A DNA stretch of 55,980 nt, taken from positions 1 through 55,980 of IMG/VR virus record IMGVR_UViG_3300012936_002638; one strand, written 5' to 3'. Shown piece after piece: positions 20,528 through 55,980 of this stretch. The position numbers were made by a program, and so were the translations under genes. Every line of letters begins with the position of its first letter. The stretch's first letter is position 1. Source of the DNA: a virus. The notes beneath the pieces were generated by a model. It ran no database searches and was not told the DNA's origin. It saw nothing but the letters and a program-made list of their open reading frames with translations.

Positions 20528-20543
20528 TATATACGCCTATAAA

Positions 20544-20559: not shown

Positions 20560-20572
20560 CTAAATATTTATG

Positions 20573-20580
20573 TATTTATA
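20573..20580 (-). promoter_or_regulatory. T4-type late promoter box, minus strand
   Basis: TATTTATA on the plus strand is TATAAATA on the minus strand, 46 bases upstream of the HTH gene start. A near copy (CATAAATA on the minus strand) abuts it at 20565-20572. It is divergent to the box at 20596. Confidence 0.6.
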
Positions 20581-20595
20581 AAAATGAGCGGTTGA

Positions 20596-20603
20596 TATAA
20601 ATA
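20596..20603 (+). promoter_or_regulatory. T4-type late promoter box for curlin gene
   Basis: Exact TATAAATA, 32 bases before the ATG of the first curlin-repeat gene, leaving room for a short leader with the ribosome-binding region AAAGG (20623-20627). It would place curlin, FecR-domain and second curlin genes under late control. Confidence 0.65.
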
Positions 20604-20634
20604 CTACTGGCTATTAGGCCGAAAGGTTAAAAAC

Positions 20635-33129: not shown

Positions 33130-34742
33130 CATTACAAACTGCCAGAGGTGGTAGTAAAAGTATACCCAAAAAGAATCTTTTAGAAGTCAACGGTCATCCG
33201 TTGTTTGCCCACAGTGTAATGGCGGCCACTGGTTGCCAATATATTAAAAGTGTATGGTGTAGTACAGATGATGATACTATAAAAAGTTATAGTGAAGAAT
33301 ATGATTTCAATGTTATTGATAGGCCACCTGAACTAAGTGGCGACAACGATAGTCATTTAGAAGTTATTAGACATGGCATTCTTGAAATAGAAAAGCAAAT
33401 AGGTAAGCAAGACATTGTGGTTTTATTGCTTGGCAATGTTTCAGGAATAGATGCTCAAAGTTTATCTGATGCTATAGATCAACTAGGTGATTATGATAGT
33501 TGTGTTAGTGTTAGTAAATTTAACATGTTCAACCCATATCGTGCTATGCAAATACGTGACCAACAGTTGGAAACATTCTTACCACAACAAGAAATTATAA
33601 CTAACACACAAGCAAATGATAAAAACAGTGCCGGTGACATATATTACTGTAATGGTAACTTTTGGGTAATGAAACGTGATACAGTATTTCATCATAACAA
33701 TAAACTGCCTTTTCAATGGTTAGGTAAAAGAATCAAACCATTTGTACAAGATGTATTTTTAGAACTAGATGCTCCTTGGCAAAAAGACTATGTTATAGCA
33801 AGTTCTACAAATCATAAAGGACAAGAATGTATTTGGGAGCAAGGAACCCGTAAAGCACATAAACACGCCGGAATGAAAAAGTTATATGGTAAAGACCATT
33901 GGGACAGGTTTTTAGAAACACATGATTATTACTTTGTAGAGTTTTGTAACTGTATAAAACCATACATGAAAACTTTAGGAAACTTCAACAAGCCTGAGAT
34001 TGACAAATATAAAAAATACGTTGCTTGGCATGGTTATCAGGAAGACTACAATACATGGTTTCAGTCTTGTATGAAGTCAGGACAAATTTTACAATCTTTT
34101 GATTATACATTTTTTGGACATAGAAAAGACGATATGTTTAAACGTAAAGAGTTTGGGCAGGCATGTATATTAATAGAAGAAATATATACAAATGGATCTT
34201 ACAACTATCCTTGTTTTAGATGGCAAGGTCCTGATCATTTAGCAGTACATCCAGGAAACCACTTGAACTTTGTTAAAACATACTTAGGCATGCCAATAAA
34301 AGGTTTTATGAGTTTTCCTAAGAAGGAAAGGTCTAAGTGGATTGATGAAATACATGCATTGTGTGAAATGCAAATAATAAAAAAGATAAAAAACGATCAA
34401 CAGGTTAAAAAAATATTAGGAACTAATCAAATAGCGGCATGGATTCAAGATTATCATAATCAACTTGTGCCTAGTTTCTATCCAAGTATACCAAGACCAA
34501 CATGGTCAGGATATGACCAAAATGGACATACAGACTGGCCCTGGAATGACGTAACAACTTATCATGAACTGTTTGAAAAAACACGAGCTTCTAGGATAAT
34601 AGACAGTATACTAGATGGAGATCCAATAACAAAGTGGGCAAAAGTTAAAACTAACTATGCTACACCAACAATAGAACTAAACAATTTTTGTGCATTTTTA
34701 TTGACAAACAAAGATAAAGATAACAACTTTGAACTAATTTAG
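33102..34742 (+). CDS. CMP-sugar (sialic/KDO-type) cytidylyltransferase fused to an unknown domain
   Basis: A 546-residue two-part protein. The first 220 residues match CMP-Neu5Ac synthetases: ALQTARGGSKSIPKKNLL (CTP-binding R-x-x-S-K-x-x-x-x-K-N), HPLFAHSVMAA, VWCSTDDD, and the usual FNMFNPYRAMQ region. The remaining about 320 residues are unfamiliar, with Trp/His-rich helices (QDYHNQLVPSFYPS) and no nuclease or transferase motif that I can name. A TTG start is used inside the SIS gene. Activation of a sugar for surface glycan modification is the likely role. Confidence 0.72.
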   Translation: MPKDKRKIVALQTARGGSKSIPKKNLLEVNGHPLFAHSVMAATGCQYIKSVWCSTDDDTIKSYSEEYDFNVIDRPPELSGDNDSHLEVIRHGILEIEKQIGKQDIVVLLLGNVSGIDAQSLSDAIDQLGDYDSCVSVSKFNMFNPYRAMQIRDQQLETFLPQQEIITNTQANDKNSAGDIYYCNGNFWVMKRDTVFHHNNKLPFQWLGKRIKPFVQDVFLELDAPWQKDYVIASSTNHKGQECIWEQGTRKAHKHAGMKKLYGKDHWDRFLETHDYYFVEFCNCIKPYMKTLGNFNKPEIDKYKKYVAWHGYQEDYNTWFQSCMKSGQILQSFDYTFFGHRKDDMFKRKEFGQACILIEEIYTNGSYNYPCFRWQGPDHLAVHPGNHLNFVKTYLGMPIKGFMSFPKKERSKWIDEIHALCEMQIIKKIKNDQQVKKILGTNQIAAWIQDYHNQLVPSFYPSIPRPTWSGYDQNGHTDWPWNDVTTYHELFEKTRASRIIDSILDGDPITKWAKVKTNYATPTIELNNFCAFLLTNKDKDNNFELI

Positions 34743-34743
34743 G

Positions 34744-34772
34744 TTGACATATGTACATATACCTGCTATAAA
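34744..34772 (+). promoter_or_regulatory. sigma70-type promoter
   Basis: TTGACA (34744-34749), 17-base spacer, TATAAA (34767-34772). It lies two bases after the CMP-sugar synthetase stop, ahead of the small gene at 34805. Confidence 0.75.
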
Positions 34773-34804
34773 AAGTTATAACGTTAATGTAATAGGGGCA
34801 AATA

Positions 34805-34978
34805 ATGCATATACAAGATACACTAGAGGCTATTGATAATAAACTAAACGAAGTAGATGAACTCATTATGAGTCTGCCACTTCAAGATAGTGTAAAACAC
34901 GACTTGGTAAAACATATATATACAATGTATGCTGAGGTAGAAGAAGCAATCGACCTTCGTCCTGCAGACTTTAACTAG
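34805..34978 (+). CDS. 57-residue acidic helical protein
   Basis: ATG 34805 follows a strong promoter and AGGGGC. The protein (MHIQDTLEAIDNKLNEVDEL, then a helix ending in DLRPADFN) is short, acidic and helical. The promoter and the position before a regular gene make it a credible gene; its function is unknown. Confidence 0.6.
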   Translation: MHIQDTLEAIDNKLNEVDELIMSLPLQDSVKHDLVKHIYTMYAEVEEAIDLRPADFN

Positions 34979-34989
34979 GAGCCACAGAT

Positions 34990-35688
34990 ATGACTGATTA
35001 TCCTACACAAGAATTATTACTCTTATCTTTTAGTGCATATAGAGTTAACAAGGGCTATGAAAAAACTACACGTAGGCATAGCGAATCTCCGCCTACATTC
35101 AGTAACAAAGAGTTGATTGCATATACTATAAGTAGTCGCTATGAACAATCTCCTTTTATTCCAGAAGACTTTACACCTTTGAAAGTAACAGAAGCAGATA
35201 AAAAAGCAAAAGAGTCTGCTGATAAGCATATGCGTAGATATACAATGCTTGCTATGGGTGATCTTCCTGACTTTGAATCTGATCTCTTCAGTGCTTATAG
35301 TAGTGAAAGAATGCCTATTGGACGTATTGGTTTATTAGCATATCTTCCTGCTTTTGTAGATAGAGAGATTGAAGCTAAAATGTACAAGCAACGTTTGAAA
35401 AACGAGTTTGAACAAAGTAATTATATCCTACATAATATTACTGAAGCAACAGATGTAGAAATATTGAAGGTTATTCCACTAAATAATGCGATATATGATG
35501 CACCTGCTTTTTTGCATTTCGGTTGTATTGGCAAAGACTTAGTTTGCTTTAGTAAAAAAGAAAAATTTGCAGTAGGCAAAACTTACGAGATCGTAGGCAA
35601 AATAAAAGGGCAGGACAAAGAACGTGATAGCGGACTGCCAATGACTCGCTTGAACTACGTCAAAGTAAGGAATGCAGAAGCAGTATGA
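34990..35688 (+). CDS. phage protein with possible C-terminal OB-like domain
   Basis: A 232-residue protein: a helical N-terminal two thirds and a C-terminal beta part (FGCIGKDLVCFSKKEKF, TYEIVGKIKGQDKER, TRLNYVKVR) resembling an OB barrel. Such C-termini occur, from memory, in conserved T4-like marine phage proteins of unknown role. A nucleic-acid-binding function is plausible but not shown. Confidence 0.6.
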   Translation: MTDYPTQELLLLSFSAYRVNKGYEKTTRRHSESPPTFSNKELIAYTISSRYEQSPFIPEDFTPLKVTEADKKAKESADKHMRRYTMLAMGDLPDFESDLFSAYSSERMPIGRIGLLAYLPAFVDREIEAKMYKQRLKNEFEQSNYILHNITEATDVEILKVIPLNNAIYDAPAFLHFGCIGKDLVCFSKKEKFAVGKTYEIVGKIKGQDKERDSGLPMTRLNYVKVRNAEAV

Positions 35689-35879
35689 TTGATTTATATG
35701 GAAGTATTTTTATTTTCGTAACCGCAATAGTGTTTACATTAGTAGGTAGATACTTTGCTAAACAAGAAGACATAGAAATTGTGACTGGCATAGTTGACAA
35801 TCTAATCAAAGAAGGTTATATTAAAACTAAAGGCACAGGCGCTGATCAAGAACTTTTAAAACATTGGGAAAAACCATGA
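35685..35879 (+). CDS. 64-residue membrane-anchored protein
   Basis: An N-terminal membrane helix (YGSIFIFVTAIVFTLVG) is followed by a short cytosolic helix (DIEIVTGIVDNLIKEGYIKT). It overlaps its neighbours by four bases on each side. No family is recognised. Confidence 0.6.
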   Translation: MIDLYGSIFIFVTAIVFTLVGRYFAKQEDIEIVTGIVDNLIKEGYIKTKGTGADQELLKHWEKP

Positions 35880-36031
35880 GTAAACTTTTTGTAATATTAA
35901 CTCCTGCAACCGAATACCATATTTACGCAATGGATACTGAAGATGCGTTAAATACTTTTGACGGAGACGTTCACGACATTCTATCTATAGCCGAGTATGA
36001 AAATGCCGGCCCAACCGATACAATCCATTGA
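35876..36031 (+). CDS. 51-residue protein, function unknown
   Basis: ATG overlaps the upstream TGA (ATGA). The protein MSKLFVILTPATEYHIYAMD is a small mixed fold, with the phrase Y-A-M-D-T-E-D-A typical of small domains that pair strand and helix. Its stop is eight bases before the next gene's preferred ATG. Confidence 0.55.
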   Translation: MSKLFVILTPATEYHIYAMDTEDALNTFDGDVHDILSIAEYENAGPTDTIH

Positions 36032-36038
36032 GGACACT

Positions 36039-36245
36039 ATGGACGACCATGATTACTTAGGATTCGAAAATACTCTTGAGGATGATGACTACGGGGTTAT
36101 TATTGATAAAGAAGGTAACCTGAAAGGCATCTGGGTACCTCAGTGTATGGAGGACAAAGATGTCCCGGATGCTATAGTACAACTTTTGAAAGAAAAATGG
36201 GGTGTTGATCCCAACGATGATGTAGTATACGGTACAATACATTGA
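36039..36245 (+). CDS. 68-residue acidic protein, function unknown
   Basis: A strongly acidic protein (MDDHDYLGFENTLEDDDYG, then VIIDKEGNLKGIWVP and a helix). The GAGG at 36030-36033 before ATG 36039 decides this start; an ATG at 35997 would add 14 residues and lie inside the previous gene. Its stop overlaps a TTG start (TTGA). Confidence 0.55.
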   Translation: MDDHDYLGFENTLEDDDYGVIIDKEGNLKGIWVPQCMEDKDVPDAIVQLLKEKWGVDPNDDVVYGTIH

Positions 36246-36472
36246 CACCATTAGAAATACATGAATATAAACTAGGGTGGAAACCTGGCTATACAGTGAG
36301 GTTACATAGTGATGTAGTTGATAAAGGCAAAACATGGTGTCGTAGGAACCTGCAACGGCATCAGTGGAGTATGTCACAATATACTGCACCATATGAACAT
36401 ACGTTTCATTTTGAAGATATAAAACCAGCAGAAATATTTACAACCGAAATGGGGAGATTTGCTAACCAATGA
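36242..36472 (+). CDS. 76-residue protein, function unknown
   Basis: A TTG-started basic protein (WKPGYTVRLHSDVVDKGK, TWCRRNLQRHQWSMSQ) with a strand-rich N-terminus. It overlaps its neighbours by four bases. The family is not recognised. Confidence 0.55.
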   Translation: MTPLEIHEYKLGWKPGYTVRLHSDVVDKGKTWCRRNLQRHQWSMSQYTAPYEHTFHFEDIKPAEIFTTEMGRFANQ

Positions 36473-36759
36473 CAGAAGAAAACTTAACCAAAACAGAAGC
36501 AGTAGGTCGATTAATCAGTTTAGCTAGAGAAGTTGAGATTAAAGACCCTGTTGATTGGTCTTCTATTAAAGTAACTGAACAACAAGTGTATGAAACAATG
36601 GCATCTAGTGCTATTGATCAGATTTACAGTTTACCAGAAGATCATAGACAATCAGTTGCAATGGCAACTATAACAAAGTTACTTGTAGAAAACTTTGTCT
36701 TAACACAAAACTTATCAATAGAAAGGTCAAAGAATGCCACTAGTTCCAATAGTAGTTGA
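36469..36759 (+). CDS. helical protein upstream of ClpP
   Basis: A 96-residue all-helical acidic protein ([32 protein letters not shown]) that overlaps the clpP start by 26 bases. The overlap suggests translational coupling with the protease, but nothing identifies a function. Confidence 0.6.
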
Positions 36760-37351
36760 ACAAGAAGCAAAAGGTGAACGTAGCTACGATATTTACAGTA
36801 GGCTACTAAAAGACCGCATTATTATGCTTAACGGTCCTGTTGAAGATATGACTTCTAATTTAGTTGTAGCTCAACTACTGTTTCTAGAAAGTCAGTCACC
36901 GGATAAAGATATTAATTTGTACATCAACTCGCCAGGTGGATTAGTTACAGCCGGCTTAGCAATATATGATACAATGCAGTTTATTAAATGTGATGTTAAA
37001 ACTATTGTAATGGGTCAAGCCTGTAGCATGGGTAGTTTCTTAGCACAAGCTGGGGCACCTGGAAAACGTTTAGTGTTACCAGAATCTAGGACTATGATAC
37101 ACAGGGTAAGCTCAGGCACTCCTGGCACAAGTGGAAGTGTTCATGTACAAGAGCTACAGTTTGAAGATGCAAAAAGACACTATGAAGAATCACAAAAGAT
37201 TAACAAACGTCTTACTGAACTTTATGTTAAACACAACACGGCAGGTAAAACATATGAAGAACTATTTGAAACAATGAAGTTTGATACATTCCTAACCGCT
37301 GAAGAAGCAGTTACGAATGGATTAGCAGACAAGGTTGTGGAGAATAGATGA
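36734..37351 (+). CDS. clpP: ClpP protease subunit
   Basis: Barrel-forming serine protease of the Clp system. The 205-residue protein is full length, with the catalytic Ser in GQACSMGSF, His in MIHRVSSG and Asp in [10 protein letters not shown], plus [11 protein letters not shown] in the substrate groove. There is no propeptide beyond the normal start. No ClpA or ClpX is encoded in this window, so it must use host ATPases. Viral ClpS lies at 14665. It may replace or mix with host ClpP. Confidence 0.93.
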
Positions 37352-40292: not shown

Positions 40293-40995
40293 TTACAACC
40301 TGTGCCTTAAAAAAGTTAAAAAAACCTGTAAGTGTTAATCTAACATTTTCTCCAGCATCCTTATCTACCCGAGTTATACCATGTACAACATTTTTACCAA
40401 TAAGCACCAATCTATTTGGCTTGGGTGCAATAAAGTATCCTAAGCCATGTTCTATTAAGTGTTTTTGTTTTTGTGCTTGTTCAAACATTTCTAATGTGCC
40501 TACACTAGCATATGTATCTTTTTGTTTAGTACCTGGTAGTTTTCTCATCATTTGCTTATATTCAACACTGTCCTTAGGCATTACTAACAACATACTATCC
40601 CAGTTGATTTGCCAATGCTTGTGCAAGTAATAACTATAAGTAACTCCGCCCATGTCTGTATGCCAAGGATTTTTTGATCCTATAGGGTATGCATGACAAC
40701 GCATAGCAATATCTGTATAGCCTTTTACAAAGTCTTGTGCATCGTCACATGTATCTGCAAAAGTTTTTATAGCATCTGCCCATATATCATAGTTATCATC
40801 AAATGGTGCATCCTTAACAAATCTTTTACTTGCTTTATAGTTTGATCCGTCAGTAATATGCCAATACTTATCATCCGTTTGACTTTGAGTCCATTCATCA
40901 CATTGTACTTGGTTAATTAACTTATCTTGACACTCTTGTGTTAAAAAGTTGTCCACTACCAAAACTTCGGGTGTTTTCATAACAACGTTGTACAT
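40285..40995 (-). CDS. 2OG-Fe(II) oxygenase
   Basis: A 236-residue protein with NPWHTDMGGVTYSYY (H-x-D metal pair), NRLVLIGKNVVHGITRV (second His) and ENVRLTLTGFF (2-oxoglutarate Arg). It fits the prolyl-hydroxylase/PKHD-like fold of marine phages. It overlaps the aminotransferase gene by eight bases and the SGNH-like gene by one base. It is the best preserved of the four oxygenase-like proteins of this window. Confidence 0.78.
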   Translation of the reverse strand: MYNVVMKTPEVLVVDNFLTQECQDKLINQVQCDEWTQSQTDDKYWHITDGSNYKASKRFVKDAPFDDNYDIWADAIKTFADTCDDAQDFVKGYTDIAMRCHAYPIGSKNPWHTDMGGVTYSYYLHKHWQINWDSMLLVMPKDSVEYKQMMRKLPGTKQKDTYASVGTLEMFEQAQKQKHLIEHGLGYFIAPKPNRLVLIGKNVVHGITRVDKDAGENVRLTLTGFFNFFKAQVVNV

Positions 40996-41684
40996 TATAA
41001 TATTTCTCCTATGTTCAGTACATTATTTTTAGTTATAGATTCTGCTACAGCCTTTCCAAATTCTGCATGAGCTCTTTCTCCAGCGTGTTTATTATCAAAA
41101 GCAAGCGGAGTTATTCTCCTATAGTTGTCAAAGAATACATTTTGTATTTTACAATCTAAGATATATTTTATATGTTTTCGTGGAAAATCTTTGAAAAAAT
41201 TTGTTCCTGTGCTAGTTTGCAACATATGATAATTAGGAATGTTCTTAGAATCTAAATATAACATTGCATGGCTTATACACTGTGCAGTATCTAAAACACT
41301 ATCATAACTTTGATAACAATATTTATACCACGCCCTGGCCGCTTTACTTTCATCTACAGCCCAAGGTCCCCAATGGCTATATGTTTTATGGTCTACAAAC
41401 AATGTATGCCTATTTGTGTGCGACCATAGTATACATACTACATCTTGACCATAATCATAGTTTAGTATTTTATACAAAATATGTCTGTTTGATGCTCCTG
41501 GCACAGCTTGGTTATTGTGTTTTAAATGTAATTTTCGTGCAACAATATTTCCCCAAGCGTACTTGCTTGGATAGGCGTCTCCGTTGTGTCTTTTTTGCAG
41601 ATGCATATCGTCAGCATCATATATGTCTGGCATGCAAGAACCCCATGTATGACTACATCCAAAACTTATTAAATTAACTGACAT
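40995..41684 (-). CDS. SGNH/GDSL-hydrolase-like protein
   Basis: A 229-residue protein that begins VNLISFGCSHTWGSCM, the phage form of the G-D-S block. NNQAVPGASNRHIL (Gly/Asn block), VCILWSHTNRH and a C-terminal DNKHAGERAH (the D-x-x-H catalytic pair) follow. Such proteins de-acylate or otherwise edit glycans. An in-frame near relative starts at the right end of the window (55938). It overlaps the amidinotransferase gene by 11 bases. Confidence 0.72.
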   Translation of the reverse strand: MSVNLISFGCSHTWGSCMPDIYDADDMHLQKRHNGDAYPSKYAWGNIVARKLHLKHNNQAVPGASNRHILYKILNYDYGQDVVCILWSHTNRHTLFVDHKTYSHWGPWAVDESKAARAWYKYCYQSYDSVLDTAQCISHAMLYLDSKNIPNYHMLQTSTGTNFFKDFPRKHIKYILDCKIQNVFFDNYRRITPLAFDNKHAGERAHAEFGKAVAESITKNNVLNIGEIL

Positions 41685-42675
41685 AACTTTCGCACTTACC
41701 TTCTCTTGTTAAATCTAATGTTACACAGTGCAATCCGCTATCCCAAAAAAACTTATGCCTAAAGTTAAACGGCACCATTTCTATACCATGACTTTTTAGT
41801 TGTGTAGCAATGTTCTTATCATAGCCATTTGTTATTACAAGTTCTGGATTTACACTTATAACATTGACATCAAATATTGTTTCGTCTACGTGTCCTATCC
41901 AACTGTCTAACCAAGTTGCAACATTTTTGGCTCTTAATGGTTGCATTTTGCTTTGCCAAAACTGCTCTGGCACAGGCTGTTTAGGAACTACTATATAATC
42001 CCAATCGCTTAGTTCAGTTGGTATCATTTCGGGTAACCAACACATTAACAATCCTGGCTTTAACAAGGCAATCTTACCATCAGCATGTCCACTTTCTGGA
42101 ATACCTATCCATTTTGCATCTACTCTATCTTGTATCCATTCAAGCCCTGCCTTTGTACCTCTACCAAACTGTCTTGTCATAGGATATGAACTGTCATTGT
42201 ATGGTTCGGTGTATAATAATGTGTCACCACACTTTAACATATTAGCGGCATGATATAAAGGTGTGCCTTCTAATGCAACATATGGCTGGTAAAAGCCTCC
42301 AAGTGTTGGAGTAGGCATAGCACTATATCGTCTATCCATATTGTGAATAATATCATTATAATGTTGGCGTTCATAAAATCTATTAGGGTCACCGCCTATT
42401 GTAGCAATGACTTGATCACCATAAACAAAATGCATATCACGTGGACAAACAGCAGGATATCTAAAGTCACCTTTATATTCGCATTTTGGTCTATGAACAG
42501 TAACGTCATAACTACGTAGCAGTTCTGCTAAATCAAAAAAATCTTCTTCTGATTCTTCGAAAATACGTTGTAGTCCATTACGAAACTCTACATCTTCAAT
42601 GTGTTCTATATCAGTTGGATCATACACTCGTCCAACTATCATTTCTTTTAGTGGATCCCATTCTGTCCATATCAT
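41674..42675 (-). CDS. amidinotransferase (glycine/inosamine type)
   Basis: Transfers the amidino group of arginine to an amine through a Cys intermediate. The 333-residue protein opens IWTEWDPLKEMIVGRVYD, then CPRDMHFVYGDQVIATIGG, a central PESGHADGKIALLKPGLLM (catalytic His and Asp), DSWIGHVDETIFDVNVIS, and the C-terminal GLHCVTLDLTREG with the nucleophile Cys. Length and motif order match GATM-type enzymes. With an aminotransferase in the same operon, it may build a guanidino-modified sugar or amino acid. Confidence 0.87.
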   Translation of the reverse strand: MIWTEWDPLKEMIVGRVYDPTDIEHIEDVEFRNGLQRIFEESEEDFFDLAELLRSYDVTVHRPKCEYKGDFRYPAVCPRDMHFVYGDQVIATIGGDPNRFYERQHYNDIIHNMDRRYSAMPTPTLGGFYQPYVALEGTPLYHAANMLKCGDTLLYTEPYNDSSYPMTRQFGRGTKAGLEWIQDRVDAKWIGIPESGHADGKIALLKPGLLMCWLPEMIPTELSDWDYIVVPKQPVPEQFWQSKMQPLRAKNVATWLDSWIGHVDETIFDVNVISVNPELVITNGYDKNIATQLKSHGIEMVPFNFRHKFFWDSGLHCVTLDLTREGKCESYVS

Positions 42676-43241: not shown

Positions 43242-43249
43242 TATAAATA
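43242..43249 (+). promoter_or_regulatory. T4-type late promoter box
   Basis: Exact TATAAATA between the last tRNA and the gene at 43255. Transcription would begin almost at that gene's ATG, so either that mRNA is leaderless or the box serves the genes further down. Confidence 0.5.
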
Positions 43250-46670: not shown

Positions 46671-47852
46671 ATGTATTTCTTACTTGATAACGTGTTGCAA
46701 GCGCCTCACGGCGGAACAATATTGAAGTTACCTGGTGACGACACTCATACACGACCAATAGATTATATATTAGGACATTTTGATGACTTTAACTATAGAG
46801 ATTTTTATCATATAAATCGTATTGGTTTGTTAAATCCAAATACAACAAAGTTTATATTTAATGTTGTTCACATGCCCGAATGGGTTGACATTGTACTTTC
46901 TCAAGAAAGCATAAAGTTGTTAAATGACGATCCTAATACATATCTATGCATTATGAGTGTGTTAGAATATTTAATCAGTCCAAAGAAGTTAGCAAATGAA
47001 ATACAAAGATTAAACATACCTTTAAACAAAGTTGTTGTTTTGTGCAGTAACCATGAGGCACATTTTAAAACAATAGAAGGTATAAGGTATATATGTATTA
47101 ACTTTTGGGAAAGTATTAGTAGACATCATCATCAAACTTTACCACACACAACAGTTACAACTCCAGACGAACTAGATATTGATAATGCTAAGAAAAAGTT
47201 TTTATGTTTAAATCGTAACATTAAACCGCATAGAATATGGCTTATGTACAGTATACTTAAAAGCAAGATACTAGAAGAAGGACATGTAAGCTATGCTTTA
47301 CCTGATGTAGCAAGAGGCGAACACGAAGAAGTCAGCAAGGGCGAACACACTCTAAAACGTATACCAGAAGATCTACATGACGATTACTATATGCATCTTC
47401 TACAAAACATGTATACTCGTAAACTTGATATCTTAGATACTTTGAATGTTATAAACTATAATGATACACTCAAACCTTTTTACAATGACAGTGTAGTAAG
47501 CGTTGTAACAGAAAGTGATAGTACAAAAAACTTTATCACAGAAAAAACTTATAAAGCAATAATGAACTTACATCCGTTTTTTATTGTAGGCAATCCTGAA
47601 ATGCATACATTGTTAAGAGCAAGAGGCTATGAAACATTTGAAGAACTGTTTGGTTTGACACAAGTTACAAACTATAGACATGCAATGGTATTATGGCATA
47701 AACTAAAAACAACGGATTTACAAATCCTAAAAAAGAAAGTTAAGGAAGAATATTTAGATAAATTAATACATAATCAGAACTTATTTCTAAGTAGAACTGT
47801 AAGTTGGAAAGACATAAAAAATAATCTTGAAACTGTGCTAGGAAAAAATTGA
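46671..47852 (+). CDS. glycosyltransferase-like protein
   Basis: A 393-residue protein. FLCLNRNIKPHRIWLMYSIL and the C-terminal SVVTESDSTKNFITEKTYKA, then HPFFIVGNPEMH and ARGYETFEELF form the F-x-T-E-K, P-F-x-x-x-G and G-Y/F-x-T-F motif set of viral and bacterial GT-B-like transferases. It lies directly before six radical SAM genes and overlaps the first by four bases. This suggests a combined glycan or glycopeptide pathway. Confidence 0.65.
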   Translation: MYFLLDNVLQAPHGGTILKLPGDDTHTRPIDYILGHFDDFNYRDFYHINRIGLLNPNTTKFIFNVVHMPEWVDIVLSQESIKLLNDDPNTYLCIMSVLEYLISPKKLANEIQRLNIPLNKVVVLCSNHEAHFKTIEGIRYICINFWESISRHHHQTLPHTTVTTPDELDIDNAKKKFLCLNRNIKPHRIWLMYSILKSKILEEGHVSYALPDVARGEHEEVSKGEHTLKRIPEDLHDDYYMHLLQNMYTRKLDILDTLNVINYNDTLKPFYNDSVVSVVTESDSTKNFITEKTYKAIMNLHPFFIVGNPEMHTLLRARGYETFEELFGLTQVTNYRHAMVLWHKLKTTDLQILKKKVKEEYLDKLIHNQNLFLSRTVSWKDIKNNLETVLGKN

Positions 47853-49072
47853 CCCAAGACTTCAAAAAACATTTTTGCATGGCGCCTTGGACACACATGA
47901 GCGTTTGGCAGAACGGAGATTCGTATCCGTGCTGTATATACCATTGGGACATGCCAGTAGGCAATATAAACACAGCAGGCTTTAAGGGTGTATGGAACAG
48001 TCAAAAAATGCGTGATTTACGATTGCGTATGCTAGGAAATGTAGCCAGTGAAGGTTGTAAAAAATGTATTAACTATGACGAACAAGGTATAATAAGTTAT
48101 AGACACAAGTTTAACACAGAATACGATCATCATTTTAATCTTGTTGAAAGCACTAAAGCAGATGGTACAGTAGACCAAATGAACTTAGCATACTTTGATG
48201 TGCGGTTTAGTAATCTGTGCAATATGAAATGTCGTAGTTGTGGTCCACACTTCAGCAGTAAGTGGGCAGAGGATTACACAGGCAAACCCGAAATAGTACA
48301 AATCAATCATCAAGACATGTGGGAAGAAATAGAAGAAATACTACCTACTATAGAAGAAGTATACTTTACAGGCGGCGAAAGTTTGTTTATGCCACAGCAT
48401 TATAGATTGCTAGATATGCTTATAGAGCGTGGACTCAAACCGAGACTGACATATAACAGCAACGCCACACGCCTTAGTCTTAAAGGCAAACACATTAAAG
48501 ATTATTGGAGTCATTTTGATAAGATTTTTTATTGTGTTAGTTGTGATCAAGTAGGACCTAAAGCTGAATACACAAGAGCAGGACAAAAATGGCAAACTGT
48601 TTTTGACAACCTATGTTACATACGTGATAACTTTGAACACAGTTATGATAAGGGAGTAATCATACAACCTAACCCAACTATTAGCGTTTTAAACATTTTA
48701 GATTTACGTAAAATATTAAACTTTTTGTTTGATAATAACATTCCTACAGATTACGATATAAATCTAAGTAATGTTTTAGTCGGTCCTGAATGGTTAAGTA
48801 TTACTATATTGCCAAAGCATATAAAAGATTTGGCTAAAGAAAATTTATTACTGTTCAAACAAGATGTTGAAAAGCTATACAATGACAAAAAAATATATCA
48901 TCAAAGACGTGACTTTCTTGATGATGGAATAGATAATATTATTAACTTTATGTATAACAGTGATGACACACGTTTGATTCCTAAGTTTAGACAGGAAATG
49001 CAAAAGATAGATAGAGCACGTAGAGAAAACTTTGTATATGTTTTTCCGGAGTTGAAGGATTTGTATGTCTGA
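47849..49072 (+). CDS. radical SAM protein with N-terminal SPASM/twitch-like domain (cluster 1)
   Basis: A 407-residue protein. The N-terminal block KHFCMAPWTHMSVWQNG, SYPCCIYH, then GCKKCINYDEQG should bind an auxiliary iron-sulfur cluster. The core has CNMKCRSC (Cys 124, 128, 131) and YFTGGES (GGE). It starts with TTG overlapping the glycosyltransferase stop. The Cys-rich domain lies before the radical core, whereas SPASM domains normally follow it. It is closely related to the next gene. The substrate is unknown. Confidence 0.85.
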   Translation: MTQDFKKHFCMAPWTHMSVWQNGDSYPCCIYHWDMPVGNINTAGFKGVWNSQKMRDLRLRMLGNVASEGCKKCINYDEQGIISYRHKFNTEYDHHFNLVESTKADGTVDQMNLAYFDVRFSNLCNMKCRSCGPHFSSKWAEDYTGKPEIVQINHQDMWEEIEEILPTIEEVYFTGGESLFMPQHYRLLDMLIERGLKPRLTYNSNATRLSLKGKHIKDYWSHFDKIFYCVSCDQVGPKAEYTRAGQKWQTVFDNLCYIRDNFEHSYDKGVIIQPNPTISVLNILDLRKILNFLFDNNIPTDYDINLSNVLVGPEWLSITILPKHIKDLAKENLLLFKQDVEKLYNDKKIYHQRRDFLDDGIDNIINFMYNSDDTRLIPKFRQEMQKIDRARRENFVYVFPELKDLYV

Positions 49073-50282
49073 AGCGTTAAAAAATAGCAAACATTTTTGT
49101 ATGATGCCTTGGATACATTTACACATGTGGCCTGCTGGTACTACATATCCTTGTTGTATGAGCGATCCTATACACCCTGTAGGAAATACACAAACACAAA
49201 GTCTGCAAGACATATGGAATGGTGAACAGATGCGTGAGCTACGTATGAACATGCTACACGATAAGCCAAGTAAAGAGTGCAGACGTTGTTATGAACTAGA
49301 AGAAAACGGTATGGGTACGTTACGACAAGGTAGTATACGTAATCACGGTGTAAACCATTGGGATAAAGTACATTCAACTGCTGACGATGGCAGTGCTGGT
49401 GATGTTAATATGGCATACATGGATATACGATTTAGTAATCTTTGTAATCTAAAATGTCGTAGTTGCGGACCACAGTTTAGTAGTAGTTGGTTTGAAGATC
49501 ATAAAGCATTACATGGTGACCCAGGACATAAGAAAATATTAAAAGTACGTGAAGACATGCGAAACTTTATGGACGAACTAGAACCATTGTTAGGAGCAGT
49601 TGAACAAGTATATTGGGCAGGAGGAGAACCTCTTATTACAGAAGAACATTATCGTGTGCTTGATAAATGGATTGAAATGGGCAAGCATGATGTTAAAATG
49701 GATTACACTACAAACTTTACTCAAATGTACTATAAGAAGAAAACAGCATTTGAATATTGGAATAAGTTTGAACATGTAAGAGTGGCTGGTAGTATTGATG
49801 CTAATCATGCTAGGGCAGAATACTTGCGTAAAAATATGATATGGTCACAAGTAGTACAAAATAGACGCACTATGTTAGAGCAGTGTCCACATGTATATTT
49901 TGAACTAACCCCCACAGTAAGCGTTTATAACGTGTTAAACCTGCCGGATTTCCACAAAGAGTGGATTGAAGAAGGACTTTTAGAACCTGCAAACCTACGT
50001 ATCAATATTCTACTGGATCCAACGTATATGCGGTTAAGTATATTACCACCCTGGATTAAAGAGCGTGTTATGAGAAGGTATGATGAACACTTAGATTATC
50101 TTAAACAGTTTGAAGAAATCAAAATGGAAAGTATTAGGCAAGATTATAAAAATATTTTGCAGTTTATGGAACAAGATAGAACTAATGAAATAAGAATGTT
50201 TATGTATAAAACACGTAAAACTGATAGTCTTAGAGAAGAAGATGTGTTTCAAGTTTTTCCTGAACTAAGGGAAATAGCGTAA
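49065..50282 (+). CDS. radical SAM protein with N-terminal SPASM/twitch-like domain (cluster 2)
   Basis: A 405-residue paralogue of the preceding protein. KHFCMMPWIHLHMWPAG, TYPCCMSD, ECRRCYELEENG form the N-terminal Cys block, CNLKCRSCGPQFSSSW carries the radical cluster (Cys 127, 131, 134) and YWAGGEP the GGE. The C-terminal part ends in FQVFPELREI, like FVYVFPELKDLY in the first copy, so the tandem arose by duplication. The stop overlaps the next start by one base. Confidence 0.85.
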   Translation: MSEALKNSKHFCMMPWIHLHMWPAGTTYPCCMSDPIHPVGNTQTQSLQDIWNGEQMRELRMNMLHDKPSKECRRCYELEENGMGTLRQGSIRNHGVNHWDKVHSTADDGSAGDVNMAYMDIRFSNLCNLKCRSCGPQFSSSWFEDHKALHGDPGHKKILKVREDMRNFMDELEPLLGAVEQVYWAGGEPLITEEHYRVLDKWIEMGKHDVKMDYTTNFTQMYYKKKTAFEYWNKFEHVRVAGSIDANHARAEYLRKNMIWSQVVQNRRTMLEQCPHVYFELTPTVSVYNVLNLPDFHKEWIEEGLLEPANLRINILLDPTYMRLSILPPWIKERVMRRYDEHLDYLKQFEEIKMESIRQDYKNILQFMEQDRTNEIRMFMYKTRKTDSLREEDVFQVFPELREIA

Positions 50283-52438
50283 TGGGTTTTTTCGAACAAG
50301 CAAAAAAGGATAGGAAAGCACCTGATCGTCCTACGTTTAGCGAAGACAAACATGTTGCTACATTACAAGCTATTGCAAAATATAGTAAGCCTGCCCAAAA
50401 AGGATTAGAAAATCTAGAAATCGAATACAATATAAACAGAACTACAAGACTATGTTTATGTTTGTTACCAGAATGGGATCCAAGTTTTCCTCCTTATAAC
50501 ACAGCAAAGTTAGCAAGTGCGGCAAAACGTGCAGGCTATGCTGTAAAAAGTTTTGACATAAATGTAGAAGCATGGGATAGATATAAAACAGAAAAATGGC
50601 AGATCCCTTTCAACCCTTGGGATCCACTACGTGATTGGCACTGGTTACCTGAACATTACTTTGATGATATACATGAATATTTGCAACCACTACTAGATGA
50701 AAAGATAAAAGAGATTGTAGAGTTTAAGCCAGACGTAGTAGGATTTACATTATACTATTGTAATAATGCACCAACTAGATATATGACGCAAAAAATAAAA
50801 GAACAAATACCAAATGTAACTATTATGGTTGGCGGTCCAAGCACTCATAGTAGTTATTACAAAGGTGATGAGTTATTTGATTATGTTGTTAATGGTGAAG
50901 GTGAACAACCTTTGTTACTAGCATTAGCAAGTATAGAAGGCAAAAAAGGTATACAATACACAGAAAAAGAAACTAGTAAGATTATACGTCAACCTGAAAA
51001 CCAACGTTACAATCTTAGTACACTACCTTTGCCAGATTATAGTGACTTCGACTTTCAAAAGTATAAGTTTCCTAATGGTGCTTTATGTGAAATATCAAGA
51101 GGTTGTATTGCAAAGTGTACTTTCTGTGAAGAAACACACTTTTGGAAATACAGACAACGTAATGCTACAAGCACATTAGATGAGATTGAACATATGTATT
51201 ATGAACATGGCACTAATGTATTTTGGTTTATTGACAGTTTAGTAAATGGCAATCTTAATGAACTACGTGGATTTGTTGTAGGCGTTGCTGAAAAAGGATT
51301 AGATATACATTGGACTGGTTATTGTAGATGTGACGGACGTATGGATTTAGATTTCTATAAGGATTTAAAAGCAGGTGGTTGTGAAGTGCTTAACTATGGC
51401 ATAGAATCAGGCAGTCAAAAAGTTTTAGATCTAATGGATAAAAAAGTTACAGTAGAAGAAATGGAAGCAAACTTCCGTGACGGCTATGCTGTTGGTATAG
51501 ATGCAATGACTAACTGGATAGTAGGCTTTCCAAATGAAGGTTATAAAGAACTAGAAGATACTTTAACTTTTTTATATAGAGTAAAAGATCAAGGATTGAT
51601 TGCTATAAGCCAAGGCACTGGATTCAGTGTAGGTGTAGATACTATTGTTGGACAAAACTTTAACAAGTTTGACTTGTCTCCTTTTTATTATTATGATCAC
51701 TGGATTACAAACGATTATAAACTTAGTATTGTACACAAACTTATAAGAATGAAAACTTTTAGTATTTTTACAGACTTTTTAAACACAGAAAAAATATGTA
51801 GTAAACCTACAAGAAATAATCTGGCGGAAAAGCATTATAAAATAGAGTTACACAATCCTGATAAAGAACTTCAAATAGAATATGATTACGATGACTTTAA
51901 CTATGACATTATACAACCTGGAATCAGCAACTTTGCAGATAGTCTAGTTAACGAGATTTGGCCATTCTTAAGAATAATGTGGCGTACAAGAGGAGGTTAC
52001 ACACTTAATCTAAAGTTTGTCAAAGAATGGGAATACGAAGAATGGGGAGAACGAAATGCGGCTCCTTTAAATGCAGAATACAAGTTTGAAATAGATGATG
52101 CTGGTAACTGGACTGCTGACTTTTGGTGGGATTATCAACAAGACGAATACACTGATTGGAACGACAAGTATTGGATAGAAGATGGCAAAATGAGAATGAG
52201 TCCTGATCCATGGAGCCCTGTTTGGAGTATTATGGACTTCACACGGGATAACAGTAACAGTGTTATACGTGCTAGAAAACTAGCATGGAAAGGTGATGAA
52301 AAGTACAAAGGCAGAGATCCATATAGTGCAACAGATTTAAATGTATTTAGACAGCATGAAAGAGATTTTTTAAGAGCAAGAAATATTGATTTTAGTTTTA
52401 AGTATGACTGGCAAGGAAGTGGTAAATGGACAGTATGA
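50282..52438 (+). CDS. B12-binding-type radical SAM protein (cluster 3)
   Basis: A 718-residue protein. After a helical N-terminus comes a cobalamin-binding-like Rossmann domain (about residues 55-225: SFPPYNTAKLASAAKRAGY, KPDVVGFTLYY, TIMVGGPSTH, YVVNGEGEQPLL). The radical SAM domain follows, with CIAKCTFCEE (Cys 275, 279, 282), LNYGIESGSQ and NWIVGFPNEG. The last 200 residues are Trp/Asp-rich and unfamiliar. No classical D-x-H-x-x-G cobalamin-His motif was seen, so B12 binding may be base-off without that His. Such enzymes often methylate or rearrange unreactive carbons. Confidence 0.85.
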   Translation: MGFFEQAKKDRKAPDRPTFSEDKHVATLQAIAKYSKPAQKGLENLEIEYNINRTTRLCLCLLPEWDPSFPPYNTAKLASAAKRAGYAVKSFDINVEAWDRYKTEKWQIPFNPWDPLRDWHWLPEHYFDDIHEYLQPLLDEKIKEIVEFKPDVVGFTLYYCNNAPTRYMTQKIKEQIPNVTIMVGGPSTHSSYYKGDELFDYVVNGEGEQPLLLALASIEGKKGIQYTEKETSKIIRQPENQRYNLSTLPLPDYSDFDFQKYKFPNGALCEISRGCIAKCTFCEETHFWKYRQRNATSTLDEIEHMYYEHGTNVFWFIDSLVNGNLNELRGFVVGVAEKGLDIHWTGYCRCDGRMDLDFYKDLKAGGCEVLNYGIESGSQKVLDLMDKKVTVEEMEANFRDGYAVGIDAMTNWIVGFPNEGYKELEDTLTFLYRVKDQGLIAISQGTGFSVGVDTIVGQNFNKFDLSPFYYYDHWITNDYKLSIVHKLIRMKTFSIFTDFLNTEKICSKPTRNNLAEKHYKIELHNPDKELQIEYDYDDFNYDIIQPGISNFADSLVNEIWPFLRIMWRTRGGYTLNLKFVKEWEYEEWGERNAAPLNAEYKFEIDDAGNWTADFWWDYQQDEYTDWNDKYWIEDGKMRMSPDPWSPVWSIMDFTRDNSNSVIRARKLAWKGDEKYKGRDPYSATDLNVFRQHERDFLRARNIDFSFKYDWQGSGKWTV

Positions 52439-53643
52439 GTGATACATATTGCGTATATCCTTTTATAAACGTACATACAAACACCGACGGCAGATGCAAA
52501 CTTTGTTGTCACGTTTATAGTGAAGACTACATTCAAGTAGATGGCAAAGATGCTGTGCTTGGCAAAACTGATTGGAACAATATATGGAACAGTCAATACA
52601 TGTTAGATGTAAGGGCAAAAATGTTAGCAGGCATGCAAGTGAAAGAATGCAAACGCTGTATCGAGCATGAAGGGAAAGGTTTACAAAGTAGTAGGCAGTG
52701 GGCAAACGAAAACTATAGAGCACCCATGTTGCATAGCAATCCTACTCACCTGGAACTTCGGCTTGGTAATAAATGTAATCTCAAATGTAATAGTTGCTGG
52801 AGCGTAAGCAGTAATCAAATATATAAAGAACGTAAAAAAATATTAGCAAATGAAACTGTACCTAAATGGTTAGATGATCAATGGCAACACGAAATAAAAA
52901 GTGTAGAAGCATTTGACTATGCTTGGTATGAAACACAAGAGTTTCGTGATTTTGTAGACCAAGTTGCACCAACATTAGAACGTTTGTATATGACAGGTGG
53001 TGAGCCAACTATGATTGATGCTAATCAATATGTGCTTGACAAACTTGTAGAAGCTGGTAACACAAAATGCCACGTTGCTTGGACAACAAATATGACAACT
53101 TGGCCTGAAGGCTTTTATGACAAACTAGATTTTTTTGATAGCAGTGAAATACAGATGAGTATTGACGGTTATGGTAGTCACAATATGTATATCCGTTATC
53201 CAACAGCCTGGAACAAAGTAGAACAAAACTTTGAAAAGGCAATGCGTTTACCGTCTAAAGTTCAGTTGAAGATATATTTTGTATATCAAGCATGGAATGT
53301 ATTTGATGTAGACAGATTAATAAACTGGTTAGAATCAAAACAAACTAGACGTGTAGACTTTGTACCTATATTTTTAGAACATCCGGATCAACTACATAGT
53401 TGTGTTTGGCCAACTGAAATAAAACATAAAATAATAGGCAAGTTGTTCACATTAGATACAACAATGCATAGAGATCCTGTACAAAGAATCATAAACTACA
53501 CACAAAATACCAATAAATATTCACAGCAGAACATTGAAAGAATGAAAGAGTTTATAGCTATTAATGATAGATATCGCAAATATAAATTTGCTGATGTATT
53601 TCCAATGCTAAACTATATATTGGAAGACGTATGCAAAACATAA
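52435..53643 (+). CDS. radical SAM protein with N-terminal SPASM/twitch-like domain (cluster 4)
   Basis: A 402-residue protein started by ATG overlapping the upstream TGA. The N-terminal block TYCVYPFINVHTNTDG, KLCCHVY, ECKRCIEHEGKG is followed by CNLKCNSCWSVSS (Cys 114, 118, 121) and YMTGGEPT. It ends FADVFPMLNYI, the same V-F-P ending as clusters 1 and 2. It belongs to the same paralogous group. Its 3' end overlaps the next gene by 13 bases. Confidence 0.85.
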   Translation: MSDTYCVYPFINVHTNTDGRCKLCCHVYSEDYIQVDGKDAVLGKTDWNNIWNSQYMLDVRAKMLAGMQVKECKRCIEHEGKGLQSSRQWANENYRAPMLHSNPTHLELRLGNKCNLKCNSCWSVSSNQIYKERKKILANETVPKWLDDQWQHEIKSVEAFDYAWYETQEFRDFVDQVAPTLERLYMTGGEPTMIDANQYVLDKLVEAGNTKCHVAWTTNMTTWPEGFYDKLDFFDSSEIQMSIDGYGSHNMYIRYPTAWNKVEQNFEKAMRLPSKVQLKIYFVYQAWNVFDVDRLINWLESKQTRRVDFVPIFLEHPDQLHSCVWPTEIKHKIIGKLFTLDTTMHRDPVQRIINYTQNTNKYSQQNIERMKEFIAINDRYRKYKFADVFPMLNYILEDVCKT

Positions 53644-54623
53644 AGGCTATATTACCTGCCAAAGATAAATGGGTAAGCATTGTATGGCAAGTCAACGATT
53701 GGTGCAACTTTCGTTGCACATATTGTAGTGAATGGAACTGGGCAGGTAGAAATAAAAATGATAGTGATATAGATTTGATTGTTCAAACACTAGAACGTAT
53801 AATGTTGCACTACAAAAATAAAGGCTATCAATATTTTAAACTTTATCTCAGTGGAGGCGAACCTACCTTTTGGAAAGCATTACTACCTGTTGTTGAAAAG
53901 TTTAGAGAAATAGCAGAATGGCCTGGCAGTTGTGTAGGCATAAACACAAACTTCAGTAGGCCATTAAAATGGTGGCATGAGCATCATCATTTGTTCGAAG
54001 ACATTGTTGCAAGCTATCATGCGGAATGGAGCAAAGACGACAAATATATTGATACATATAAATTTTTACAAGATAAGAAAAACTATCTTTGTAGCCGTAT
54101 TATGATGCACCACGACCATTTTGAACAATGCGTTGCATTTGGTGACAGAATAAAGAATGAGTGCGACAACTATATGATTGAGTATGCTCCTGTATATGAC
54201 GAACTACGTCCTAGCACAAGTCCATACTGGTATGAAGAAGAATGGAAAATGGATTTCTTCAAAACAAATAGTACAGTGCAACAGCAAAGTATTCCAATAC
54301 ACAAAGAGCCTAGTTATGCATGGGCTAAAACATGGTTCGAAGATGACACAATAGAACCAATAAACACTAATGGTATTATTACAGAAGGAAAAAACTTCTT
54401 TCAAGGTTGGTTATGTAACATACACGAAAGTTTACATATACATCCTAATGGACAAATACAACAAGCAAGTTGCGGTGTAGGTCCTATAGTAGGCAATATC
54501 GTTAAAGGCGAGTTCAATACAACAATGAGTGATGGAGTGTGGTGTCCAAAAACTCATTGTCATTGTGCCGCAGATTTTAACATCACTAAAGCAAGGCCAG
54601 AGTATGCAGAACAAATTAGATAA
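53631..54623 (+). CDS. radical SAM protein, short form with C-terminal Cys motif (cluster 5)
   Basis: A 330-residue protein of a different subtype. The radical motif lies at the N-terminus (CNFRCTYC, Cys 25, 29, 32), with YLSGGEPTF following. The C-terminal region holds a second Cys group (WLCNIHESLHIHPNG, QASCGVGPIVGN, KTHCHCAAD) in the place usual for SPASM domains. The mixture of N- and C-terminal Cys domains within one operon is notable. The 3' end overlaps the next gene by 20 bases. Confidence 0.83.
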   Translation: MQNIKAILPAKDKWVSIVWQVNDWCNFRCTYCSEWNWAGRNKNDSDIDLIVQTLERIMLHYKNKGYQYFKLYLSGGEPTFWKALLPVVEKFREIAEWPGSCVGINTNFSRPLKWWHEHHHLFEDIVASYHAEWSKDDKYIDTYKFLQDKKNYLCSRIMMHHDHFEQCVAFGDRIKNECDNYMIEYAPVYDELRPSTSPYWYEEEWKMDFFKTNSTVQQQSIPIHKEPSYAWAKTWFEDDTIEPINTNGIITEGKNFFQGWLCNIHESLHIHPNGQIQQASCGVGPIVGNIVKGEFNTTMSDGVWCPKTHCHCAADFNITKARPEYAEQIR

Positions 54624-55941
54624 GTTACCAGAAAAGTTTTGTATGCTTGCAATGCAAGGATTCAGTACACATGCACATGGCAGAACAAGACCTTGTTGTT
54701 TTAGTCGTATAGGTACAAATACTTACATGCCTGGAGTTCAAATACAAGGTATGAAAGAATGGGAACATCACGGTAATAGCAATGCAGAAACATTAGAAGA
54801 TTTTATTAACGATCCCGCAGTTATGAAACTTAGACAAGGACTATTGAAAAATGAAGTACCTGATGGTTGTAAAGGTTGTTTTGAACTAGAGGATCAAGGC
54901 ATAAGAAGTTTTAGACAAACCTGGAACGAAATATACGAACAAGATATAGACACTAGTCTAAAAAACATAAGTGAAGATGGACATTTAGATCCACAAGCAC
55001 TAACATACTTAGATATCAGTTTAGGCAATGTATGTAATCTAAAGTGTCGTAGCTGTAATCCTTGGGCAAGTCATAGGTGGATTGAAGAAGGGCCTACTGT
55101 ACCACATACAGATTGGGATAAAACTGCATATCATATTGCAAAACTTAGCAGTGAAGATCCTTGGTTTGTGAAAGCATTTGCCGAAGGCTGGTATGACGAT
55201 GTTTTACCCAATATTAGAGTTATAAATTTTATAGGTGGCGAACCATTAGTAGTACAAGAACATTATACATGGCTAGAGCATATTATTGATATGGGGCTTG
55301 CAAAACACATAGAACTACATTACAATACAAATGGCACTACAATACCTAAAAGGTTGTTAGATATTTGGGATAAGTTTAGAGGTGTTATATTAAGTTTAAG
55401 TATTGATGCTGTAGGCGACTTAGCATATTATGTAAGGTTTCCTAGTAAGTGGAAAATAATAGATAGGAACATAGAAAAGCTAAAGGAGTTTAGTGCTACA
55501 CGTAAGGGCGTATTAGTGCATACACACGTTACATTGAGCTTGCTTAACCTACATGACTTGCCAAACTTATTAGACTGGTGTAAGAAGCAGTATGATACAT
55601 GGCATTACACACATGATTGGGGAAACTATGGTTATCAAAACTGTTTACCGCATTTCAACATTGTAGAAAATCCAAGATATCTAAATATTAGAAACTTACC
55701 TGATGAGCGTAAAGCATTAATGAATACTATGTTAGAAGAACAACATCAAAGATTTAAAAATGCAAAACTGCCTGAGTGGGAACAATGGGCAGTTGATAAT
55801 ATTATTAGTTTGAAAAATATTTTAAATCAACCTCCAGATGAGGGCGATTGGCAAGTATTCATAGAGAATACACTTGCAAGTGATAAGTTTAGAAATGTAG
55901 ATATAAAAAAGTATATTCCATGGATGGAGAAATATTTTTGA
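54604..55941 (+). CDS. radical SAM protein with N-terminal SPASM/twitch-like domain (cluster 6)
   Basis: A 445-residue protein. ATG 54604 within the end of the previous gene is preferred over an upstream ATG because MQNKLDKLPEKFCML aligns with the other N-termini. The block FCMLAMQGFSTHAHG, RPCCFSR, GCKGCFELEDQG precedes CNLKCRSCNPWASHRW (Cys 144, 148, 151) and FIGGEP. The C-terminus ends DIKKYIPWMEKYF. It is the longest of the paralogous group and is coupled to the SGNH-like start that follows. Confidence 0.85.
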   Translation: MQNKLDKLPEKFCMLAMQGFSTHAHGRTRPCCFSRIGTNTYMPGVQIQGMKEWEHHGNSNAETLEDFINDPAVMKLRQGLLKNEVPDGCKGCFELEDQGIRSFRQTWNEIYEQDIDTSLKNISEDGHLDPQALTYLDISLGNVCNLKCRSCNPWASHRWIEEGPTVPHTDWDKTAYHIAKLSSEDPWFVKAFAEGWYDDVLPNIRVINFIGGEPLVVQEHYTWLEHIIDMGLAKHIELHYNTNGTTIPKRLLDIWDKFRGVILSLSIDAVGDLAYYVRFPSKWKIIDRNIEKLKEFSATRKGVLVHTHVTLSLLNLHDLPNLLDWCKKQYDTWHYTHDWGNYGYQNCLPHFNIVENPRYLNIRNLPDERKALMNTMLEEQHQRFKNAKLPEWEQWAVDNIISLKNILNQPPDEGDWQVFIENTLASDKFRNVDIKKYIPWMEKYF

Positions 55942-55980
55942 AACTTATAAGTTTTGGTGATGAACTCACACTTAATCCTT
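55938..55980 (+). CDS. start of an SGNH-hydrolase-like gene (partial)
   Basis: A TTG codon overlapping the last stop (TTGA) opens a frame reading MKLISFGDELTLNP, cut by the window end. LISFGDELT resembles the GDS block of SGNH proteins and the start of the protein at 40995 (NLISFGCSHTWG). Only 14 residues are visible. Confidence 0.5.
   Translation, partial: MKLISFGDELTLNP

Follow-up and report, generated by a model that had tools for sequence, protein, structure and literature searches.

A phage radical SAM gene cassette and the known modules of T4-like phages

Modules of several radical S-adenosylmethionine (rSAM) genes are already known from T4-like phages (PMC2853527, PMC5332604, PMC7029224). 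Here we present a further module of this kind, an ordered cassette that combines a glycosyltransferase (GT) gene with rSAM genes whose products mostly carry an N-terminal twitch domain (N-twitch). It was found in the linear IMG/VR virus record IMGVR_UViG_3300012936_002638 of 55,980 bases, and this whole stretch is called the window. On the plus strand between 46671 and 55941 the window holds seven genes, the GT gene followed by six rSAM genes (R1-R6), all of them overlapping. We lean slightly towards the reading that the phage encodes in this cassette a pathway of glycan tailoring, in which the rSAM enzymes would tailor the sugar or glycan that the GT transfers.

The T4-like Campylobacter phages CP220 and CPt10 encode 11-12 rSAM proteins each, and according to their description five of the rSAM genes form, together with an amidinotransferase, an interchangeable block, which the authors proposed to be a swappable, non-essential metabolic module (PMC2853527). 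CP220 resembles the window in its many rSAM genes, and its block also holds two genes with a nucleoside-diphosphate-sugar transferase fold, near baseplate genes. The five rSAM genes of that block differ, however, in the lack of an N-twitch, with a core Cys motif that begins at residues 7-39. The CP220 rSAM genes match R1-R6 only weakly and in an unrelated gene order; the composition is alike, but the genes are not orthologous. Three CP220 proteins were scored against NF033640, the family of the N-twitch proteins, and all stayed below its cut-off; a comparison of CP220 proteins with the GT of the window likewise gave no relative among those compared. A tblastn search of a phage collection with the GT and R5 proteins and the protein encoded at 44720 gave no match.

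Many rSAM genes are also on record from marine T4-like phages. The genome TARA_ERS488813_N000010 has 12 of them together with an A-type carrier (PMC5332604), and pelagimyophages were described to hold rSAM gene cassettes in a host-recognition cluster (PMC7029224). By these published descriptions the likeness comprises a marine T4-like phage, many rSAM genes, an A-type carrier, a hypervariable island with glycosyltransferases, and curli genes. Both open-access papers touch on the rSAM genes only in passing, and the passages concerned give neither families nor order, conservation or function. An earlier note on this DNA had regarded the composition of the gene run as unfamiliar, a view that has to be narrowed, since many-rSAM modules of T4-like phages were already in print.

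In the cultured and sequenced Vibrio phage K566, NF033640 genes alternate with GT8 and GT4-like genes. K566 and K567 differ from the window in that the identity is 25%, three to four rSAM genes are present, R5 and the B12-binding rSAM gene are missing and the GT families are others.

Layout, recurrence and selection of the cassette

The six consecutive, overlapping rSAM genes behind a glycosyltransferase-like gene that the earlier note had described were confirmed, and the CxxxCxxC motif was present in all six open reading frames. The GT gene (46671-47852) is followed by R1 (47849-49072; motif at residues 124-131), R2 (49065-50282; 127-134), R3 (50282-52438; 275-282), R4 (52426-53643; 117-124), R5 (53631-54623; 25-32) and R6 (54604-55941; motif near residues 146-153 as numbered from a start at 54598). 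Successive overlaps are 4, 8, 1, 13, 13 and 20 bp. For R6 the most likely start is ATG 54604, not GTG 54529, and the resulting 20-bp overlap recurs in several relatives. R6 ends the cassette: in relatives a non-rSAM gene comes next and then a DUF6071/SGNH-like gene. The rSAM family PF04055 was matched above its cut-off by five of the six proteins, R5 with 29.6 bits, and R2 stayed below it (20.7 vs 29.5 bits).

IMG/VR was scanned with R3 (24 loci) and R2 (42 loci), and 31 loci with at least four cassette genes were left once near-identical ones had been removed. With R5 as query, 168 relatives were confirmed, from which 79 loci were kept, 40 of them non-redundant. The co-occurrence counts depend on the query and describe relatives of R2, R3 and R5, not NF033640 genes at large. 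Most window-type loci showed the order GT-R1-R2-(R3)-R4-R5-R6 with near-identical overlaps, and the 8-bp overlap of R1 and R2 was found at every locus holding both genes. Distant versions of the array share approx. 25-58% identity. Each of the 40 non-redundant R5 loci from viruses had an NF033640 neighbour, and where no more than one or two such neighbours were present the locus was cut by a contig end; the viral relatives of R5 are thus not scattered singly, the outcome that the earlier note had named as refuting. As the order recurs across diverged phages it is not due to chance. We concluded that many ocean phages and some from freshwater share this cassette, in which five to seven rSAM genes of conserved order go together with a GT gene.

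The cassette genes are under purifying selection. The ratio of nonsynonymous to synonymous substitution rates (dN/dS) was 0.02-0.19 in four pairs; the value for the window pair is rough because dS is near saturation, and closer pairs agree with it.

Two related contigs carried especially many PF04055 matches, 17 in G008 and 18 in G004 (L154-L155). To our knowledge such numbers on one phage contig are among the highest, relative to the published phage rSAM modules. In G008 (L150-L152) the rSAM genes form two arrays.

The N-twitch radical SAM proteins

R1, R2, R4 and R6 passed the curated cut-off (170 bits) of NCBIfam NF033640, the "twitch domain-containing radical SAM protein" (N_Twi_rSAM), with 362, 395, 304 and 329 bits, respectively. 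We know of no function assigned to this family. In the cassette, four of its members stand in a fixed-order array together with a GT, an R5-type rSAM protein and an optional B12-binding rSAM protein. Each of the four has an N-terminal twitch/SPASM Cys block ahead of the rSAM core, and together with R3 and R5 (below) they agree with the domain types assigned before: four proteins with an N-terminal Cys block, one of cobalamin type and one with its Cys block after the core.

The iron-sulfur (Fe-S) ligands showed no sign of degeneration. In R1, R2, R4 and R6 both the core and the auxiliary Cys were kept at 96-100%, with the core triad at 100% in each class examined. In R1, Cys 10, 28, 29, 70, 73 and 124/128/131 were kept in 96-100% of the orthologues; the auxiliary C12, C30, C31, C72 and C75 of R2 were present in 23 of 23 orthologues, and the twitch and core Cys of R6 were invariant among 22.

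An AlphaFold2 model of R2 reached a predicted local distance difference test (pLDDT) score of 88.4. Compared with solved structures it resembled viperin, MoaA, anSME, SuiB and EpeE with template modelling (TM) scores of only 0.3-0.53, and the solved sequence nearest to its N-terminal block was the C-terminal twitch of BtrN. The BtrN match together with a likeness confined to the core fold indicates an auxiliary-cluster rSAM architecture for R2, with the auxiliary domain at the N-terminus. BtrN oxidises an aminocyclitol. Both BtrN-type or sugar-type dehydrogenases and SPASM maturases combine an auxiliary twitch/SPASM cluster with an rSAM core, as the cassette proteins do. Their auxiliary domain is, however, C-terminal instead of N-terminal, and R2 shares with them the core fold only (TM at most approx. 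0.53).

These relatives also bear on a different explanation, that the cassette makes a small molecule (a modified nucleoside, a cofactor or an aminocyclitol-like compound) which serves infection directly and is itself glycosylated by the GT. BtrN is a small-molecule enzyme, and so is StrB, an inosamine-phosphate amidinotransferase of streptomycin biosynthesis and the best solved relative of the amidinotransferase-like gene on the minus strand at 41674-42675 (phmmer, StrB 1bwd, 4.6e-16). The CP220 amidinotransferase is related to the same gene product (4e-14), CP220 too combines rSAM genes with an amidinotransferase, and viperin- and MoaA-like cores were among the top fold matches of R2. The core likeness is general to rSAM enzymes (TM 0.3-0.5), though, and the genomic contexts consist mostly of sugar-nucleotide and glycosyltransferase genes; no exporter or resistance gene was recognised. 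We regard a small-molecule product as quite unlikely.

A separate NF033640-type gene, R0, lies outside the cassette at 16952-17971 on the plus strand (187.5 bits to NF033640; PF04055 2.7e-12) and accounts for the seventh of the seven PF04055 matches across the window. Within 15275-17971 it is close to a heme-oxygenase-like gene and a bilin reductase (PF05996). This position, weak matches to the heme enzymes NirJ and AhbD, and the swappable, non-essential module suggested for the Campylobacter phages (PMC2853527) would fit general auxiliary metabolic genes, for heme/tetrapyrrole or other host metabolism, that share no pathway and are held together by modular exchange. The matches of R1-R6 to heme enzymes, however, amounted to approx. 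17-29 bits where the cut-offs are 500 or more, and the fixed order, the translational coupling and the co-occurrence in diverged phages and bacteria argue for one joint function. A set of unconnected auxiliary genes thus appears very improbable to us.

Origin of the paralogues and bacterial relatives

The earlier note had taken the four N-twitch proteins for products of duplication and had asked for a phylogeny. Common descent was supported by their membership in one curated family. A FastTree phylogeny of 158 NF033640-type proteins, in which long branches were flagged, resolved them into separate old clades: the 32 R4 orthologues all fell into a single clade (support 100), separate clades common to widely diverged phages were formed by R1 and by the main groups of R2 and R6, and additional members that stand upstream in distant phages (U1, U2, Rm) made up further ones. 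The duplications are therefore older than the split of the phage lineages and the paralogues are old orthologous groups; recent tandem duplication was ruled out by these clades. The V-F-P ending offered before as a mark of duplication did not hold up. R1 and R2 have an FPEL-like C-terminus, and the trait is spread through the wider family as FPEL across orthologues, so it does not indicate recent duplication.

NF033640-related proteins were also found in Bdellovibrionota, Bacteroidota, Elusimicrobia and others. Among 291 genomes sampled from the phylum of a Bdellovibrionales bacterium, 16 had an R5 homologue (E <= 1e-30), 11 of these 16 with an NF033640-type neighbour and four with the trio of R2-type, R5 and short NF033640-type genes. 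As R2-type genes stand beside R5 in phages and Bdellovibrionota alike, R2 and R5, the most widely shared members of the cassette, form a core pair common to phages and bacteria.

R3 and R5

R3 has a B12-binding domain (PF02310, 2e-9) ahead of the rSAM core (PF04055, 1e-14), both above cut-off, and is of class-B type. It passed no curated NCBIfam cut-off; the best match was TIGR03975, a C-methyltransferase of ribosomally synthesised and post-translationally modified peptides (RiPPs), with 103 vs 281.85 bits. R3 is optional, being missing from approx. one third of the non-redundant loci, some of which are cut by contig ends.

In R5 the auxiliary Cys block is located after the core. C25, C29, C32, C262, C281, C305, C310 and C312 were invariant, a Bdellovibrionales homologue included. 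Bacterial proteins of approx. 650 aa with an R5-like domain were seen at three further loci (L265, L266, L271), one of them next to the end of a carbamoyltransferase-like gene and a membrane-protein gene, as judged by sequence appearance.

The glycosyltransferase

The 393-aa product of the first gene was modelled by AlphaFold2 with 21 viral relatives (pLDDT 91.9, predicted TM score (pTM) 0.90). In a Foldseek comparison with the PDB, the top GT matches were nearly all GT-B glycosyltransferases, among them OtsA, the alpha-1,3-fucosyltransferase 2nzw, SdgB, PimA and BshA. With TM scores of 0.3-0.46 these matches fix the fold class, not the substrate. On this model the gene at 46671 encodes a glycosyltransferase with a two-Rossmann GT-B fold, which bears out the earlier glycosyltransferase-like assignment. 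The BFVD matches included GT10/fucosyltransferase proteins and also, over 378 aligned columns, a phage protein of 788 aa that bears the name UDP-glucose dehydrogenase. E291 and K292 were invariant across the 21 relatives, and we take this pair to resemble the donor-binding E-K of GT10. No Pfam or NCBIfam family was matched by the GT; as to GT10, the lack of a Pfam match thus stands against the invariant E-K and the GT10 proteins among the fold matches.

The GT adjoins the rSAM array in 25 of the 31 non-redundant loci; in the window type it precedes the array, whereas in the type of L025, L031 and L063 it follows. Within window-type phages its identity was 38-62%, compared with mostly 72-90% for the rSAM genes. 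The higher conservation of the rSAM genes would agree with a constant chemistry that serves varying acceptors.

Genomic surroundings of the array

Sugar genes were clearest around the distant versions of the array. In L025, L031, L063, L064, L065 and L068 the upstream genes are tail-fibre-like, glycosyltransferase-like and RfaE-type nucleotidyltransferase/cupin (MannoseP_isomerase) genes, and downstream follow genes for a GT, a UDP-glucose/GDP-mannose dehydrogenase, a C-methyltransferase (PF08484), a methyltransferase and an NAD-epimerase. The island of G008 (57.7 kb) extends through genes for a DegT aminotransferase, an epimerase, a cupin, a ribulose-phosphate epimerase, a SIS protein and a carbamoyltransferase up to a second rSAM array. 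Carbamoyltransferase genes recur near NF033640 arrays in L057, L070 and the bacterial L104.

Genes for Fe-S delivery were found in related phages. G001 (134 kb), which is syntenic with the window, has a NifU-domain (Nfu-type, PF01106, 1e-23) scaffold gene on the minus strand (L160:8839-9225). Both G001 and G002 have an A-type Fe-S carrier gene (PF01521; L157:3485-3844 and L163:5156-5518) directly upstream of a giant fibre-like gene of 2,185 and 2,409 aa, respectively. This placement in G001 resembles the host-recognition cluster of pelagimyophages (PMC7029224).

Several observations weigh against a glycan pathway. None of R1-R6 passed an NCBIfam equivalog cut-off, so no reaction can be assigned, and many bacterial NF033640 homologues are lone genes in mixed contexts. 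The flanks of the window are mixed and show no clear sugar pathway; the glycan-type pathway proposed before thus finds its sugar-gene neighbourhood clearly only in relatives. The genes thought to feed it fared unevenly. The amidinotransferase-like gene on the opposite strand (StrB, above) may be a feeder, and a CMP-sugar-type cytidylyltransferase domain protein (PF02348, 4.7e-13; 33102-34742, plus strand) may be a source of sugar nucleotide. The aminotransferase match, however, was weak (E 5e-6), and Pfam detected neither a SIS domain in 32614-33129 nor an SGNH domain in 40995-41684. Furthermore, peptides or proteins are the most frequent substrates of SPASM/twitch rSAM enzymes, and in the distant versions the island begins directly after tail-fibre genes, which makes a protein substrate possible.

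The last two points lead to a tail-fibre maturation system, in which the rSAM enzymes would modify a virion protein such as a tail fibre, by crosslinks or by epimerisation or methylation of residues, with the GT as the enzyme that glycosylates the same protein. Such a role is also suggested by the nearness of R3 to RiPP C-methyltransferases (TIGR03975, ApyD), by islands of the L061/L068 type that come after a tail-fibre gene with a YGYGYG run, and by the giant fibre-like genes approx. 9 kb past the cassette in G001. On the other hand, the YG run is missing from the fibre genes of L175-L177, three contigs that still have NF033640 genes; a strict link between the run as substrate and the rSAM genes was therefore rejected. 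The recurrent neighbours are sugar enzymes and not proteases, leader-binding domains or precursors. The overlaps throughout the window array leave no room for a RiPP precursor gene and none was found there, as the earlier note had stated, a result that covers the array only and leaves a distant precursor possible. We consider protein maturation unlikely, though not to be dismissed.

Other features of the window were noted as well. CsgG-like secretion channel and curlin-repeat genes lie at 19465-23414 and are kept in G001; such genes are reported for pelagimyophages (PMC7029224), and their presence suggests a pelagimyophage-like virus. At 89-4050 a central-carbon block comprises the genes for phosphoenolpyruvate carboxykinase and GAPDH and, next to them, what may be a sugar-phosphate aldolase-like gene. 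In G001, 34704-36892 (L160) holds genes that look CtaG- and cytochrome c oxidase subunit I-like from their sequences only. The T4-type late promoter TATAAATA was not enriched (6 found vs approx. 10 expected by chance); one copy, at 43242-43249, lies upstream of the gene run leading into the cassette. No clear excess emerged from scans for promoters and terminators.

Proposed function of the cassette

We favour glycan tailoring because apart from the rSAM genes a single gene is linked to the array and this gene encodes a glycosyltransferase, because distant arrays sit among sugar genes and K566 alternates NF033640 with GT8/GT4-like genes, and because the solved sequence nearest to the twitch block is BtrN. 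The faster divergence of the GT points the same way, as do the kept predicted cluster ligands, the low dN/dS and the Fe-S delivery proteins of related phages. From gene content, order, conservation, intact metal ligands, selection, GT-B fold, the sugar genes of relatives and the Fe-S delivery genes we infer which types of reaction would take place and in which order, on what substrate and to what biological end, as follows. R1, R2, R4, R6 and R5 are each predicted to bind a SAM-cleaving [4Fe-4S] cluster and an auxiliary cluster, and would carry out successive radical steps, for example dehydrogenation, deoxygenation or epimerisation, with an intermediate that is a sugar, a sugar nucleotide or a glycan. 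R3, where present, would add a C- (or P-) methyl group. The GT would then move the product onto an acceptor, most likely a host surface polysaccharide, or a virion tail protein. A changed host surface glycan may alter receptors or exclude other phages.

A more specific version, to which we give somewhat less than an even chance, is that the N-twitch paralogues round the R2-R5 core pair make, in several radical steps, a sugar or glycan modification of an undescribed chemical type that a dedicated GT-B enzyme installs. Phages with two arrays (17-18 rSAM genes) could write two such modifications.

Significance

With 168 confirmed relatives of R5 alone in IMG/VR and with contigs of 17-18 rSAM genes, marine phages would represent a rich source of radical enzymes that has hardly been read. 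If glycan tailoring is true, the uncharacterised NF033640 family would gain a function, with R2 and R5 as minimal pair, and the sequenced Vibrio phage K566 would offer a system that may be open to gene deletion. A further gain would be an insight into the means by which phages of the nutrient-poor ocean, with Fe-S delivery genes of their own, afford a chemistry that is costly in iron and SAM. Such a cost would presumably be paid since a change of the surface glycan strongly affects the competition between phages.

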